Shown in pieces: positions 15,100 to 21,016 of a DNA stretch of 33,196 nucleotides. The notes beneath the pieces were generated by a model. That model made no database searches, was not told where the DNA came from, and worked only from the letters and a program-made list of their open reading frames with translations. The position numbers were made by a program, and so were the translations under genes. The stretch spans positions 1 to 33,196 of the forward strand of contig CACVAP010000046.1 in NCBI GenBank assembly GCA_902727895.1, written 5' to 3'. Source of the DNA: an uncultured Sulfurovum sp. (GTDB lineage: Bacteria; Campylobacterota; Campylobacteria; Campylobacterales; Sulfurovaceae). Within the stretch, counting starts at the first letter, position 1. Each line of letters opens with the position of its first letter.

Positions 15100-15305
15100 T
15101 TATATTTTAAGTAAATCCTCTTGAGACAACTCCTTAAGCCTCTTCTTGCCCATAATCGCCAATAAAGAACGCATACCTTCTATCAAAGCATCATGATAGT
15201 TTGCAACGGTATGTGATTTTTTAGCAACCAAGAACTTAGAATGTTTAAAAAGTCAGCATCATACGCAAAAAGTTCGATGGCATCATCAGGCGTTAAATCA
15301 TGCAT
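15100..15305 (-). pseudogene. Small gene split by a -1 frameshift at a UUUAAAC heptamer
   Basis: Starts with ATG at 15305, 2 nt after the doxX stop, with AAAGGAG upstream inside doxX. The zero frame gives a 41-residue peptide (MHDLTPDDAIELFAYDADFL...). At 15249-15243 the minus strand reads T TTA AAC in frame, and the -1 frame continues from there as HSKFLVAKK, SHTVANYHDALIEGM and RSLLAIMGKKRLKEL to a stop at 15100, giving about 68 aa. The VANYH...LLAIMG part looks like the C-terminus of FMN-binding glutamate-synthase-family proteins. Either one T was lost from a T-run (pseudogene) or this is programmed frameshifting. The tight spacing on both sides (2 and 4 nt) shows it was an operon gene. 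Confidence 0.55.
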
Positions 15306-15307
15306 GA

Positions 15308-15745
15308 CTATTTCTCCTTTCCAAACATCAGATGGTCAAGAGAAAACTTCCCTGCACCATGGGCTGTAAACATAAACAAAAATAACAGATAATAAAGAGG
15401 AATCTCAAAACCGTTGTCTCCAGCTGAAAAACCATGTGCAAAGTGTACCGTAGCAATGGCAACAACCATCGTCACCATCAGTGGTATTGAAATAAGTCGG
15501 GTAAACAATCCTAACGTTAACAACAGTACGCCTAAAAGTTCCGTTGTGGCTACCATGTAAGCGTTAAGTGTGGGAAAAGGAATTCCCAATGAGCCAAACC
15601 ATGTAGCAATACCATCTATGTCTTGCCATTTCTTAACAGCAGGTTCATAAAAACCATACGCAATAATAAGCCGTGCAAGAAGTAATGAAAGCGATTGAAA
15701 ATTAACAAGAATATCTTTAATAAATTTATGAGTTGTGTGTAACAT
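15308..15745 (-). CDS. DoxX-family membrane protein
   Basis: 145 aa with four predicted membrane helices: about 18-36, 60-83, 85-107 and 114-133. The DoxX signature is visible: LLARLIIAYGFYEPAVKKW, then GIPFPTLNAYMVATTELLGVLLLTLGLFTR. DoxX proteins sit in the inner membrane and associate with thiol/oxidant handling and, in bufferin/HvfA-type operons, with copper-binding modified peptides. Here the Cys-rich HvfA-like peptide gene lies 143 bp upstream on the same strand. A separate promoter precedes doxX, so the two can be expressed independently. First gene of a three-gene transcript. Confidence 0.85.
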   Translation of the reverse strand: MLHTTHKFIKDILVNFQSLSLLLARLIIAYGFYEPAVKKWQDIDGIATWFGSLGIPFPTLNAYMVATTELLGVLLLTLGLFTRLISIPLMVTMVVAIATVHFAHGFSAGDNGFEIPLYYLLFLFMFTAHGAGKFSLDHLMFGKEK

Positions 15746-15777
15746 GTATGTTCCTTGATTTTAGAGATATGAAGACC

Positions 15778-15806
15778 ATTATAGTCTTTTAACTCTAGAC
15801 CATCAA
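15778..15806 (-). promoter_or_regulatory. Promoter of the doxX operon
   Basis: On the minus strand: -35 TTGATG (15806-15801), 17-bp spacer, -10 TATAAT (15783-15778). The predicted start site is about 26 nt before the doxX ATG, and an AAGGAA ribosome-binding site lies between them. Confidence 0.65.
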
Positions 15807-15888
15807 AAGAACATAATGATTAAGTATATTAAAAAGGGTAGAGATGTTGGAGAAAACAAGCTCTACTGTCGAAAGTTCTAGCTAATGG

Positions 15889-16101
15889 CTATTTACCACC
15901 ACACTTACCTGCACCACATTTTGCGTCTGGTTTTGGCTTGTCAGTACCACATTTTCCCTCACCACATTTTGACTCTGGTTTAGTTGGTTTTGATGTTCCA
16001 CATTTACCCTCACCACACTTAGCATCTTCTGCTGTTAATGTTGTTGTTCCAAAAGCTATCATTGCCAATACTGCTGCAAATCCTAGAGTAAGTTTTTTCA
16101 T
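15889..16101 (-). CDS. Exported Cys-rich peptide with KCGxGKCG repeats, HvfA-like RiPP precursor
   Basis: 70 aa. A signal peptide (1-24, AVLAMIAFGTTTLTA) is followed by three modules KCGEGKCG, KCGEGKCG and KCGAGKCG joined by Lys/Pro-rich linkers; all six cysteines lie in KCG triplets. EGKCG repeats behind a signal peptide are the hallmark of HvfA in Haemophilus, where a DUF692 (MNIO) enzyme with its partner converts these cysteines into copper-binding oxazolone/thioamide groups. No DUF692 or HvfC-like gene lies in this window, so the peptide would need a maturase encoded elsewhere or work unmodified as a periplasmic thiol metal ligand. ATG is preceded by AAGGA. Expression probably responds to the 11-bp inverted repeat upstream. 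Confidence 0.7.
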   Translation of the reverse strand: MKKLTLGFAAVLAMIAFGTTTLTAEDAKCGEGKCGTSKPTKPESKCGEGKCGTDKPKPDAKCGAGKCGGK

Positions 16102-16145
16102 TTTGTATCCTTAAAGTTTTGTTTAGAACCATCCAGTCTCGCTCG

Positions 16146-16184
16146 CTGAGCTTGTCGATCGGTCACTGAGCTTGTCGAAGTGAC
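16146..16184. repeat. Tandem CTGAGCTTGTCGA repeat with hairpin
   Basis: CTGAGCTTGTCGA occurs at 16146-16158 and again at 16166-16178 (20-bp period). The second copy is framed by GTCACT / AGTGAC (16162-16167 and 16179-16184), giving a hairpin. This GC-richer motif belongs to a short interspersed palindrome (CTTCGACAAGCTCAG on the other strand) seen scattered in many bacterial genomes. It falls in the predicted 5' leader of the Cys-rich peptide. Confidence 0.7.
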
Positions 16185-16212
16185 TTGTTCTAATAGCAGT
16201 ATATTAGAACAA
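16185..16212 (-). promoter_or_regulatory. Inverted-repeat operator and -10 of the Cys-rich peptide gene
   Basis: Perfect 11-bp inverted repeat TTGTTCTAATA / TATTAGAACAA with a 6-bp spacer. On the minus strand a -10-like TATACT (16203-16198) lies in its centre, so a dimeric regulator bound here would block the promoter. The regulator is unknown. The leader from here to the ATG would be about 90 nt and includes the tandem repeat. Confidence 0.6.
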
Positions 16213-16296: not shown

Positions 16297-17619
16297 TTAT
16301 GCTAATAACCACTCCAAGATATTCTTAACCTCTACTCCACTATCTAAAACCTCAGAACTATCCTCACACAAAACAGTCATCTTCACCTCTTTTAGATTTA
16401 GCTCTTTTAGATTTAGCTCGTCTACTACTTTAGCGAAAGGAGCCAACTCTCTTTTACGTGTTTTTTCATCTTGTAAAGTTACCGTAACTTGTATCATCTC
16501 AACTATCTCTCTATTTTTCTCAACCACAAAATCACACTCCAAATCACCCTTAGTTTTGTAATAATAAACCTTATATCCTCGTCGTAACAACTCCAACAAA
16601 ACCACAGACTCCAAATCATGCCCTTTTGTTTTAACATTTGGAACTCGTAATAGATTAGACAAACCCAAATCTATAGAGTAATATTTTCGAGCATTGGCTT
16701 GTTGTTTTTTTAGCGAATAATCAAATTTATTGATAGCCAAAATCATATAAGCTTTTTCTAAATACTCCATATAGTCTCTAGCCATATCATAAGAGATAGC
16801 AAAAGAATTTTTGAGTTTATTAATGGTGTGGTAAGTTGCTGTATTAGAAAGTATAAAAGCAGATAAATCTTCTAAAGTTTTAAAGTTTTTGAGTTTAAAT
16901 CGTGCGACGATATCTTTAAGAAGTATAGAGTTAAAATAACCCTCTATCAGTTCTTTTTGCATTAGCTTATCTTTTGAATAGGCTATGCTTTTGGGAAATC
17001 CCCCCTCAGATATAAAAGCTGTGAACTCACGATTAAGCAAATGCTTTTGGCTAATTAGCTCTATTTTATTTTTTACTTCTATATCTTTAAACAACAAAAA
17101 CTCTTTGAAACTCAAAGGATAAACGTCCACACTTACATATCGACCACTTAAAGCTGTGCCTATCTCAGAACTTAACATCGAAGAGTTAGAACCTGTCACG
17201 TAGATGTGTGATTTTTTTAGTTCATACTCCGTATTTACCCACTTCTCCCAATACTCAATATTTTGTACCTCATCCAAAAAGATATAGGGCTTTCCTTGTG
17301 GATTAACAAACTCCATGTAGGTATCTTTAATAAGCCCCAAGAGTTCAATACCCAAATGACCGATAAGCCGAACATCTTCAAAGTTAACAAACAACAGTTG
17401 CTCTTTTTCTACCCCATTAGCCACAAGTCGCTTCATCTCATTAATAAGCAGTGTCGATTTACCACAACGCCGAACCCCTTTAATCACAAGTACTTCATCT
17501 GTTTGGCTCAACCGTTCTATCTGATTTACGTAGCTTTTTCTTGGAGTGGTTTTGGGAAATTCTCTGTTCCAGTAGTTCCAATCTAATAGAATTTCGAAGA
17601 GTTGATTTTTGGTTAGCAT
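16297..17619 (-). CDS. AAA ATPase with DUF4143 domain
   Basis: 440 aa. An N-terminal ATPase domain has Walker A GVRRCGKST (about 48-56) and Walker B YIFLDEVQ, followed by the sensor strand YVTGSNSSML. The C-terminal DUF4143 region (about 225-430) includes a restriction-like strand pattern (GYKVYYYKTKGDLECDFVVEK), in which D-x-ECDF resembles a nuclease-fold metal site. These are common, mobile-looking, often phage- or archaea-shared ATPases of uncertain role. A 15-nt tandem repeat (16389-16418) duplicates ELNLK near the C-terminus. Expression is probably controlled by the operator-like repeats just upstream. ATG at 17619 with AAGGAAA before it. Confidence 0.85.
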   Translation of the reverse strand: MLTKNQLFEILLDWNYWNREFPKTTPRKSYVNQIERLSQTDEVLVIKGVRRCGKSTLLINEMKRLVANGVEKEQLLFVNFEDVRLIGHLGIELLGLIKDTYMEFVNPQGKPYIFLDEVQNIEYWEKWVNTEYELKKSHIYVTGSNSSMLSSEIGTALSGRYVSVDVYPLSFKEFLLFKDIEVKNKIELISQKHLLNREFTAFISEGGFPKSIAYSKDKLMQKELIEGYFNSILLKDIVARFKLKNFKTLEDLSAFILSNTATYHTINKLKNSFAISYDMARDYMEYLEKAYMILAINKFDYSLKKQQANARKYYSIDLGLSNLLRVPNVKTKGHDLESVVLLELLRRGYKVYYYKTKGDLECDFVVEKNREIVEMIQVTVTLQDEKTRKRELAPFAKVVDELNLKELNLKEVKMTVLCEDSSEVLDSGVEVKNILEWLLA

Positions 17620-17630
17620 GGATTTCCTTT

Positions 17631-17685
17631 TTATGATATAAAATGTATTATATCATAAAATTACAGTTTATAAAATGTAATATAT
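17631..17685 (-). promoter_or_regulatory. Operator-like repeats upstream of the DUF4143 ATPase
   Basis: Perfect 11-bp inverted repeat TTATGATATAA / TTATATCATAA (17631-17641, 17648-17658) directly before the ribosome-binding site. The core ATAAAATGTATTATAT (17638-17653) recurs as ATAAAATGTAATATAT at 17670-17685, exactly 32 bp away, about three helical turns. Two equally oriented sites on one face of the DNA suggest cooperative binding of a repressor. Confidence 0.55.
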
Positions 17686-17770
17686 TATTTTTTAAAAGGA
17701 AGTAATTTAATACTTTCCTTTCTGTACCTTCTTAAGTCAAAAATTATATTTTTATGTATATAATCCTTTT

Positions 17771-17880
17771 GGTCTACATAGGGAATTTTTATGGGGAAGT
17801 TTCTTTTAGAAAAATGGCAAATGATTTATCTTTGATAAGTCTACAGGTTCGAGTCCTGTCCCCCCACTAGTAGACCACCA
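17771..17880 (+). other. tRNA 3'-end-like sequence, possible attachment site or tRNA relic
   Basis: 17842-17868 reads as a perfect T-arm (ACAGG TTCGAGT CCTGT) followed by CCCCCCAC, like the 3' end of a tRNA or tmRNA. The bases upstream (TGGGGAA at about 17792, then a weak hairpin ATTTATC/GATAAGT) pair only partly, so no intact tRNA forms. GGTCTAC (17771-17777) and GTAGACC (17870-17876) bracket the block as an inverted repeat. Integrated elements often leave such tRNA 3' ends, and the truncated HEPN-like gene begins at once after it. No integrase is in the window. 17686-17770 shows nothing recognisable. Confidence 0.4.
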
Positions 17881-18833
17881 CTTCCATATTAAATAGGATT
17901 CAAATTATTTTTAATAAACAAAGTAAAAATGTACAATATCTTAGAAAAGTAATTCTCAACTTAAAAAGAGATGTTGTTGAAGCCATAAAAAAGAATAGAC
18001 CTTTTGAAATTGAGATGAGAACAAAATTACTTGCATTGACATATAGTGCTTGGTCTGAAGCTCAATTTACACAAATTGTATATACTCCTAATACATTTAC
18101 AGATACACAAATAGCTAATATGCTAAAAGATTCGGGAATATTCAATAAATGGCAAATTCTCATCAACTATACATTTATACAAATTAAAACACACCATAAA
18201 GTCCAAAAAATAGAAAGAACAAATCAAATAAAAAATGATGCTGAAAATGGTTGGGAACAAAAACTTCAGGAGATAAATCAAGTTTACTGTGAGAAACAAA
18301 AAGAAATTGTATATCAAAAGACAACAATTAAAAATTATTTGGAAAATTATGTCGATAAACAATCTAAAGTTAGAAATAAAATTGCTCATGGACAATGGCT
18401 TACAGCATTACACCCAAATAACAAAATGAAATTTCCTGAAAAGTTAACCAATTTACAATGGTCAGAGATTGTAGTTAAATTAAATATAAAAGATTTTCAA
18501 TATCACTACTGTGAGTTTATTCAGAACTTTAAGATAAATTCCACTTTAACGAAAGAACTAGAAGAACTTAATGTTTTTTCAATAATGAAAGAATTTGAAG
18601 TTCATACTATATTAGGCGATATAATTCGACACTTAGTACAATCCCCCAATAAAGAATTTAATAATAATTATTATAAAAACATGGAGAAATTAGAAATATA
18701 TCTGAATAAGATATCTAATCGAAATTATGAATCTTTTAAGCAGGACTTAGAAATGAAAAAGCAGAGATTTAAAAAACAAGCTGTTACATTTTCATCAGTA
18801 AATCCAATCGTCTCAAAGACCTCATTGACATAA
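17874..18833 (+). pseudogene. HEPN-like protein gene, 5' end (start codon) missing
   Basis: The first ATG in frame is at 18015 and would give 272 aa. The frame is open and protein-like 47 codons further upstream (RIQIIFNKQSKNVQYLRKV, then LKRDVVEAIKKNRPFEIE), back to a stop at 17871-17873 inside the tRNA-like block, without a usual start codon. So the gene is probably 5'-truncated at that junction. R120-N-K-I-A-H125 (18015 numbering) is an Rx4H motif of the HEPN ribonuclease superfamily, set in the RNKIAHGQW context seen in abortive-infection-type HEPN proteins. The last ~18 codons run antisense into the NACHT fragment, so the 3' end is also probably altered. It could still make a shortened protein from 18015. 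Confidence 0.55.
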
Positions 18834-19780: not shown

Positions 19781-21016
19781 CTATTTCTTACTAAACTCAA
19801 TCGAAAAACAATGCATCCCATCCATAAATCGGTAGGCAAAAGTATAGTCATGACGGTTCACAATACCATCGACAATGTAAAGTCCTAAGCCCATACCTTC
19901 TAAACTGTGTTGGGTCAAGTCCCGTTCATAGGCGTTCATGTATTTGGTGATGCCTTCTTTAAAAGGCGTTCCACTGTTTTTAATGCTTAGACGGTTGTTT
20001 GCAAAGCCAATGTAGACAGGTTTGGCATTTTTATATTTAAAAGCATTGTCCAAAAGGTTTTTAATAACATAGGTAAAAAGCTTAAAGTCCACCTCCACAC
20101 GTTCAACTCCCACACTAATCTCAAACTCATCACGATGAATGTCTAACATATCAATCGCCTGATCGACAAGGTCAATGACAGCATAGGTTTTTAAATCCAA
20201 CTCTAAACTCTTCTCACTCAAAGACTCCACCCGTGCAAAGTCATCCAAATGTCCTTGCATCTGGTCAAAAAGGTCTTCGAGTAAGCGTTTGTCTTTTGCT
20301 TCACCCTCGATAAAGTGCATGAGCATCTTTCCTTTAGAAATAGGGGTTTTAAGTTCATGCATGACATTTCGTAAAAACAAGGCTCTACTTTTTTCTAAAG
20401 CCTGAGTCCGTTTAACACTGGCATCAAAAGCATTGGCTACTTGTGCAACCTCATCCGTACCTGCTATTTGTATGTTAATGTCTTTTTCACCATTGGCAAA
20501 ACGTTGTATCTGTACATATAGCTCTTGTAAAGGGTTAATGGACGAAGAGATAAACCTAAACAGCATCAGCAGTAACACAAAAAGAAAAATAGCAATAATC
20601 CCAATATAAAGCTTATAAGGTGTCATAGGTTCATCACTACGATAATAATACATGCTGTCCATCTTATAAGCATAATAACAATGCATATCATAAACATAAA
20701 TGGCAATGTCACCCGACTGTAAGGTCTTACGAAACAACTCATCTTTGATAAAGAAAACCCCTTTCTCTTCAACCTCTTTCATTTTAGCACCACCCACAGG
20801 GGTGAGTTGATGTTTTTGGATGTACTTTTCAAAGTCATCTTTAGAAGGGTGTTTGGTAAACAGTAGGTCGTAGAGCATCACAGCCCGATAGACTTCATTT
20901 TTCTTATCAAGGTACACAGAGAGTTGCAAGGCTAAAAGTGTCGCCACAACAAGGAGTACCCCAGCAATAGCCCCTACCAAACGTGCAGAGAAAATAATAG
21001 ACTTAGTTTTCAACAA
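19781..21016 (-). CDS. Sensor histidine kinase, ArsS-like (Campylobacterota type)
   Basis: 411 aa. Two membrane helices (about 10-34 and 135-156) enclose a roughly 100-residue periplasmic sensor. It continues as HAMP (about 157-208), a dimerisation/phosphoacceptor helix with H220 in VMHELKTPISKGK, and a catalytic domain with N box NLLDNAFKYK and G2 GMGLGLYIVDG. H-E-L-K-T-P-I-S/T-K-G is typical of the ArsS family first described as the acid-responsive kinase of H. pylori; this ArsS is unrelated to arsenic despite the ars operon 2 kb away. The signal is unknown. It overlaps the response regulator gene by 14 bp and follows it in the transcript. Confidence 0.9.
   Translation of the reverse strand: MLKTKSIIFSARLVGAIAGVLLVVATLLALQLSVYLDKKNEVYRAVMLYDLLFTKHPSKDDFEKYIQKHQLTPVGGAKMKEVEEKGVFFIKDELFRKTLQSGDIAIYVYDMHCYYAYKMDSMYYYRSDEPMTPYKLYIGIIAIFLFVLLLMLFRFISSSINPLQELYVQIQRFANGEKDINIQIAGTDEVAQVANAFDASVKRTQALEKSRALFLRNVMHELKTPISKGKMLMHFIEGEAKDKRLLEDLFDQMQGHLDDFARVESLSEKSLELDLKTYAVIDLVDQAIDMLDIHRDEFEISVGVERVEVDFKLFTYVIKNLLDNAFKYKNAKPVYIGFANNRLSIKNSGTPFKEGITKYMNAYERDLTQHSLEGMGLGLYIVDGIVNRHDYTFAYRFMDGMHCFSIEFSKK

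Follow-up and report, generated by a model that had tools for sequence, protein, structure and literature searches.

An MNIO-free KCG-peptide/DoxX gene pair in Sulfurovum and its counterparts in the Campylobacterales

Here, we analysed a 33,196-nucleotide stretch of DNA from an uncultured Sulfurovum sp. (the whole stretch is called the window below), in which the gene of a short, cysteine-containing KCG peptide is followed 143 bp downstream by a doxX gene. The features of the locus are collected in Table 1.

Table 1. Features of the peptide-doxX locus and its upstream neighbours (positions in the window)
Feature	Position	Strand	Description
FMN glutamate-synthase-like gene remnant	15106..15297	-	two C-terminal stretches, frame broken
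doxX, HvfX family	15308..15745	-	145 aa membrane protein; PF07681 74.2 bits, NF050144 127.4 bits
Promoter-like TTGATG-N17-TATAAT	15778..15806	-	candidate in the peptide-doxX gap; 10/12 consensus match
KCG peptide gene	15889..16101	-	70 aa; signal peptide and three KCGxGKCG modules; 6 Cys
Two GACAAGCTCAG repeat copies	16143..16180	-	between promoter and peptide start codon
11-bp perfect inverted repeat TTGTTCTAATA-N6-TATTAGAACAA	16185..16212	.	TATACT -10-like hexamer of the peptide gene at centre
AAA/DUF4143 ATPase gene and unannotated ORF	16297-18833		between ArsS-type kinase and peptide gene
ArsS-family sensor histidine kinase	19781..21016	-	NF038389 307 bits, cut-off 250

The open reading frame and a module scan confirmed the peptide as it had been described in the initial annotation. 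Its translation starts with MKKLTLGFAAVLAMIAFGTTTLTAEDA and continues with KCGxGKCG modules at residues 28-35, 45-52 and 61-68, and 6/6 cysteines sit in KCG triplets. At least one such module arose in just 37 of 100,000 shuffles of the mature-peptide composition, and since the codons differ between the three modules, they are no fresh DNA repeat. The secretion signal was called by eye, from a lysine-rich start and a hydrophobic core; together with the repeated EGKCG/KCGxGKCG core it gives the peptide the precursor features of the oxazolin/captophorin class. The label HvfA-like was borne out by the NCBIfam profile NF050137 (KCGExKCG_twice), which the peptide passed with 54.6 bits against a cut-off of 19.5. 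The HvfA equivalog NF050188 gave 32.5 bits, below its cut-off of 95, and a Pfam search at E <= 1 returned zero matches to the peptide, Bufferin 1 (DUF2282) and metallothionein included.

The downstream gene was likewise verified as doxX by PF07681 and by NF050144, whose cut-off of 80 bits it clearly exceeds, which makes it a member of the HvfX family. The protein contains no cysteine and its predicted structure is all-helical (pLDDT 88.7). A sequence search found no relative with a solved structure, and Foldseek with the model returned nothing significant (the best match, at E 1.3, was a vitamin K carboxylase), thus the structure gives no mechanism.

We also confirmed the inverted repeat which had been noted over the -10 region of the peptide gene, with the TATACT-like hexamer in its centre. 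It is the sole match in the whole genome with up to three mismatches allowed, and its role as a conserved operator was rejected because the palindrome is not retained at the equivalent site of the nearest relative, L041. The GACAAGCTCAG copies in the leader (0 expected by chance in the window) are absent from L041 and look like a small repetitive insertion. The doxX gene may have a promoter of its own in the intergenic gap, where the candidate is one of 5 promoter-like matches found in the region versus 3.2 expected, counted by consensus match alone. At four other loci (L036, L042, L052 and L073; 4/89 versus 0.04 expected) a CRP/FNR-like site, TGTAA-N6-TTACA, precedes the peptide gene by about 72 bp; the window contains no such site. 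A Crp-type regulator, a rubrerythrin and a ferritin-like gene lie immediately upstream of this site in L036.

The nearest relatives of the window DoxX come from Sulfurovum, which would place the window in or near this genus; the closest of them, L041 (90% identical), is collinear with the window. Its gene order is ArsS-type kinase, peptide, doxX1, doxX2 and FMN enzyme. The final ~40 nt of the window doxX match doxX2 of L041 and the remainder matches doxX1, while in the sequence after doxX the start of the next gene matches the FMN gene of L041; this chimaeric end and junction are as expected if two doxX copies recombined. The remnant next to doxX corresponds to residues 472-496 and 525-571 of the L041 protein at 76-85% identity (tblastn), and no intact close copy of the FMN gene exists elsewhere in the genome, the best other match being a 39% paralogue. 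Judging by these DNA junctions, the window copy is a peptide-doxX-doxX-FMN-enzyme operon shortened by deletions; a misassembly at the deletion point is possible. On the upstream side, the ArsS-family kinase adjoins the peptide gene in L041, and the segment which intervenes in the window is therefore probably an insertion. The system had been proposed to be a reduced one, and the locus has indeed been cut down, however the pieces lost here are a second doxX and an FMN glutamate-synthase-like gene.

Such deletions, along with the upstream gene insertion and the leader repeats, could mean that the window pair is a decaying relic which no longer works after the loss of the second doxX and the FMN enzyme. 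We consider this improbable: both open reading frames and all KCG modules are intact, the peptide has three modules versus two in L041, and DoxX differs from its L041 counterpart with dN 0.049 and dS 0.364 (dN/dS ~0.14), although this is one pairwise value that may mainly date from before the deletions.

In the Haemophilus system, a peptide of this type is encoded with a modifying enzyme of the MNIO (DUF692) family, HvfB, and a DUF2063 partner, HvfC. The modification of HvfA, described in the initial annotation as an oxazolone/thioamide pair, is now assigned as 5-thiooxazole (PMC13419390, PMC13097082). We searched the window genome (2.96 Mb) with profiles for both proteins and found neither an MNIO (PF05114) nor a DUF2063 protein (PF09836). 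Hence two marks of the oxazolin/captophorin class, an MNIO in the operon or genome and a DUF2063 partner, are lacking, as would fit the proposal that no maturase is encoded nearby. Of the three options offered earlier, that of a maturase encoded at another genomic site is rejected by the same search, and also by the lack of PF05114 in 33 congeners (0/33) and in the genome of L041; a maturase lost or never needed still stands, the two alternatives being left together. PF05114 was also missing from 45 of the 50 genomes that hold related DoxX genes. An MNIO that was simply missed, in an assembly gap or through divergence, would leave the peptide a normal oxazolin-type RiPP. The genome is a draft (105 contigs, 96.2% complete) and the peptide keeps the canonical motif, yet the congeners and L041's genome have no MNIO either, the DUF2063 partner is absent as well, and 33 genomes of the order do give an MNIO in the identical search, which makes this explanation very hard to believe.

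The MNIO-free state was then considered at the level of the order, in 349 Campylobacterales genomes, each at least 90% complete. PF05114 was present in 33 of them, HvfX above the cut-off in 78 and NF050137 in 46; when the lists were crossed by hand, 57/78 HvfX genomes and 27/46 KCG genomes had no MNIO. The count for NF050137, taken at E <= 0.001, is an underestimate because many Sulfurovum peptides read KCQ, KCD or KCS. MNIO was missing from 67 of the 2583 complete bacterial genomes with Buf_EGKCG that a published survey counted (PMC12452194, Table 3), and the peptides of these 67 were suggested to do without modification or to have stopped functioning (PMC12452194). The shares differ with a Fisher p = 4e-29, but as both samples and profiles differ, the contrast is to be read as an order of magnitude and not as a calibrated test. 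The state is scattered over the DoxX tree with 10 changes, in a tree of few columns, unrooted, in which gain and loss of MNIO are not separated. An MNIO-free KCG-peptide/DoxX unit is widespread in Campylobacterales, and the window pair, earlier called an orphan, is instead one member of this class. The MNIO-free state itself was already known and noted as rare; the literature searched contained no description of a lineage in which it is prevalent and has its own neighbourhood.

A KCG-type peptide gene lies on the DoxX strand, about 1 kb or less away, in the majority of the 80 named DoxX loci, and peptide genes are likewise close to DoxX and in its orientation in the majority of the order-wide set of 60 MNIO-free loci. 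An MNIO is present in just 1/80 named loci, and the comparison of synteny proposed earlier returned a recurrent peptide-DoxX pairing without MNIO. The order in MNIO loci is peptide-MNIO, followed in part of them by a DUF2063-like gene (in L244 it scores 25.0 bits, barely below the cut-off) and DoxX. The neighbours in MNIO-free loci are of two kinds, which may occur together: an FMN glutamate-synthase-like gene (PF01645), and genes for a Gluconate_2-dh3 subunit and a GMC oxidoreductase. The protein encoded by the first has a hydrophobic stretch at its N-terminus and three conserved cysteines fitting a 3Fe-4S site; the subunit has a Tat motif in 67/70 cases. At least one of these flavoenzyme-type genes is present in 62/79 and in 41/60 MNIO-free loci vs 2/33 MNIO loci; since the loci are related, the p of 3e-9 overstates this enrichment. 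A literature search found no papers tying DoxX, Sulfurimonas and GMC enzymes together.

This neighbourhood could be explained if MNIO had been replaced, so that either the FMN protein or the pair of GMC oxidoreductase and Tat-exported subunit matures or recharges the Campylobacterales KCG peptides together with DoxX. Apart from the enrichment, the GMC pair is also found in L009 and L022, loci fetched via the KCG domain and not via DoxX, and the window genome retains such a pair on another contig (C68), where no KCG peptide lies alongside. However, the two enzyme types that take each other's place are unrelated, the GMC pair has a predicted periplasmic location and would act after export, the FMN gene is dead in the window, a GLT gene is found in two MNIO loci too, and neighbours in related genomes are non-independent samples. 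We regard replacement as quite improbable; if true, it would be a second, MNIO-free route within a known metallophore family.

A further possibility is that the cysteines serve thiol or sulfane-sulfur handling, by carrying persulfides or cycling between thiol redox states while DoxX feeds electrons to quinones, with metal being secondary. DoxX is kin to subunits of thiosulfate:quinone oxidoreductase and passes the DoxD cut-off narrowly (23.8 vs 22.7 bits in a profile search), and the hosts are sulfur bacteria (Sulfurovum, Sulfurimonas). A gene for a ferredoxin-thioredoxin-reductase/rhodanese fusion (FTR-rhodanese) is located downstream in 27/135 loci, KCG modules are fused to cytochrome c in some proteins, and a rubrerythrin stands beside L036. 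Yet the FTR-rhodanese gene accompanies only some of the loci, within part of Sulfurovum, and is missing from the window; DoxX itself has no cysteine, and the synteny may reflect chance inheritance of neighbours. It seems to us an unlikely explanation, though one to be taken seriously.

KCG motifs were also observed in other proteins. In the window genome (L003 985-1686, contig C20) a lipoprotein combines at least one KCG motif with a helical stretch rich in Ala and Lys and with a cytochrome c domain (PF00034) at its C-terminus, an architecture shared by L011, L017, L018 and L020, and reversed in L016 and L019, where cytochrome c comes first and the KCG tail last; all of these are from MNIO-free genomes. 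A secreted protein of 160 aa from the same genome has CTTKKCDKK-type repeats and, after them, KCGEGKCG motifs (L002 1159-1641, contig C74); the KCDKSKKCDYKK repeat protein of L027 resembles it. Another KCG lipoprotein family, built around an MFDGNAAL...DDPR domain (L181 1121-1522, L186 576-998, L085), occurs in or near Sulfurimonas, near the DoxX unit and not adjacent to it.

The evolution of the peptides bears on whether the MNIO-free members function. Nine close pairs of MNIO-free peptides gave dN 0-0.13 and dS 0.31-0.93 (dN/dS about 0-0.19) with every cysteine retained, thus these peptides are not relics. Glycine follows cysteine in 98% of cases in MNIO-linked peptides (28 peptides) vs 61% and 56% in two MNIO-free sets (47 and 86 peptides), which were gathered with a KC-free filter; when cysteine content was the sole filter, non-coding frames overwhelmed the set. 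At the level of genus means, for which two KC were required, the share was 1.00 in 15/16 MNIO-linked genera and 0.33-1.00 in MNIO-free genera (p = 0.005). The characterised MNIO FonBC tolerates after cysteine only alanine besides glycine, in paired variants, and rejects charged residues (PMC13097082), so numerous MNIO-free peptides seem to have been freed from recognition by MNIO. It seems that selection for this recognition was relaxed in several MNIO-free genera and not in the window, whose peptide, with its nearest kin and the MNIO-free genera g23, g31, g41 and g58, has glycine after every cysteine. Its own sequence would therefore suit an MNIO and does not decide the matter. Lysine before cysteine was rejected as a mark of the MNIO-free state: it reached 90-92% vs 65% by cysteine count, but the genus-level p was 0.066.

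The reading which we find best, and to which we give about an even chance, is that of an unmodified periplasmic thiolate peptide buffering soft metals together with DoxX. The peptide would be exported to the periplasm, where its six cysteines would most likely remain free thiols, since both MNIO and the DUF2063 partner are missing from the genome. The K-C-G-x-G-K-C-G modules could then act as paired thiolate sites for soft metals, probably Cu(I), in a metallothionein-like buffer, with the HvfX-type DoxX in the membrane presumably serving the same job. Several points count against it. Periplasmic free thiols are at risk of disulfide formation, the flavoenzymes encoded nearby could point to redox or some other chemistry, the glycine after every cysteine would suit an MNIO, and no copper gene families are prominent among the commonest neighbours.

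The proposed buffer shares with the Haemophilus HvfA-HvfB-HvfC-HvfX oxazolin system (captophorin/bufferin class) the signal peptide, the repeated (E)GKCG modules, of which HvfA has three in the form AEGKCGEGKCG (PMC13419390), and a DoxX of the HvfX family, but it is without HvfB and HvfC and does not reach the HvfA equivalog. With bacterial metallothioneins it would have in common the principle of unmodified cysteine thiolates binding soft metals, whereas the window peptide is predicted to be exported, carries KCG modules and has no Pfam metallothionein match. In a like state are the MNIO-free Buf_EGKCG genomes (PMC12452194), which also combine an EGKCG peptide with the lack of MNIO; unlike in that description, Campylobacterales units have a conserved DoxX, flavoenzyme neighbours and purifying selection, and they form the majority among KCG-bearing genomes. 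The earlier interpretation is, overall, partly supported.

EGKCG peptides have been regarded as MNIO substrates, and a published survey described members without the enzyme as rare and perhaps dead (PMC12452194). In an order where the MNIO-free members are the majority and evolve under purifying selection, the function that the peptide and DoxX have on their own becomes open to testing. Such an order is also a warning that naming a peptide of this kind a modified RiPP metallophore from its profile only, as NF050137 does, overcalls.
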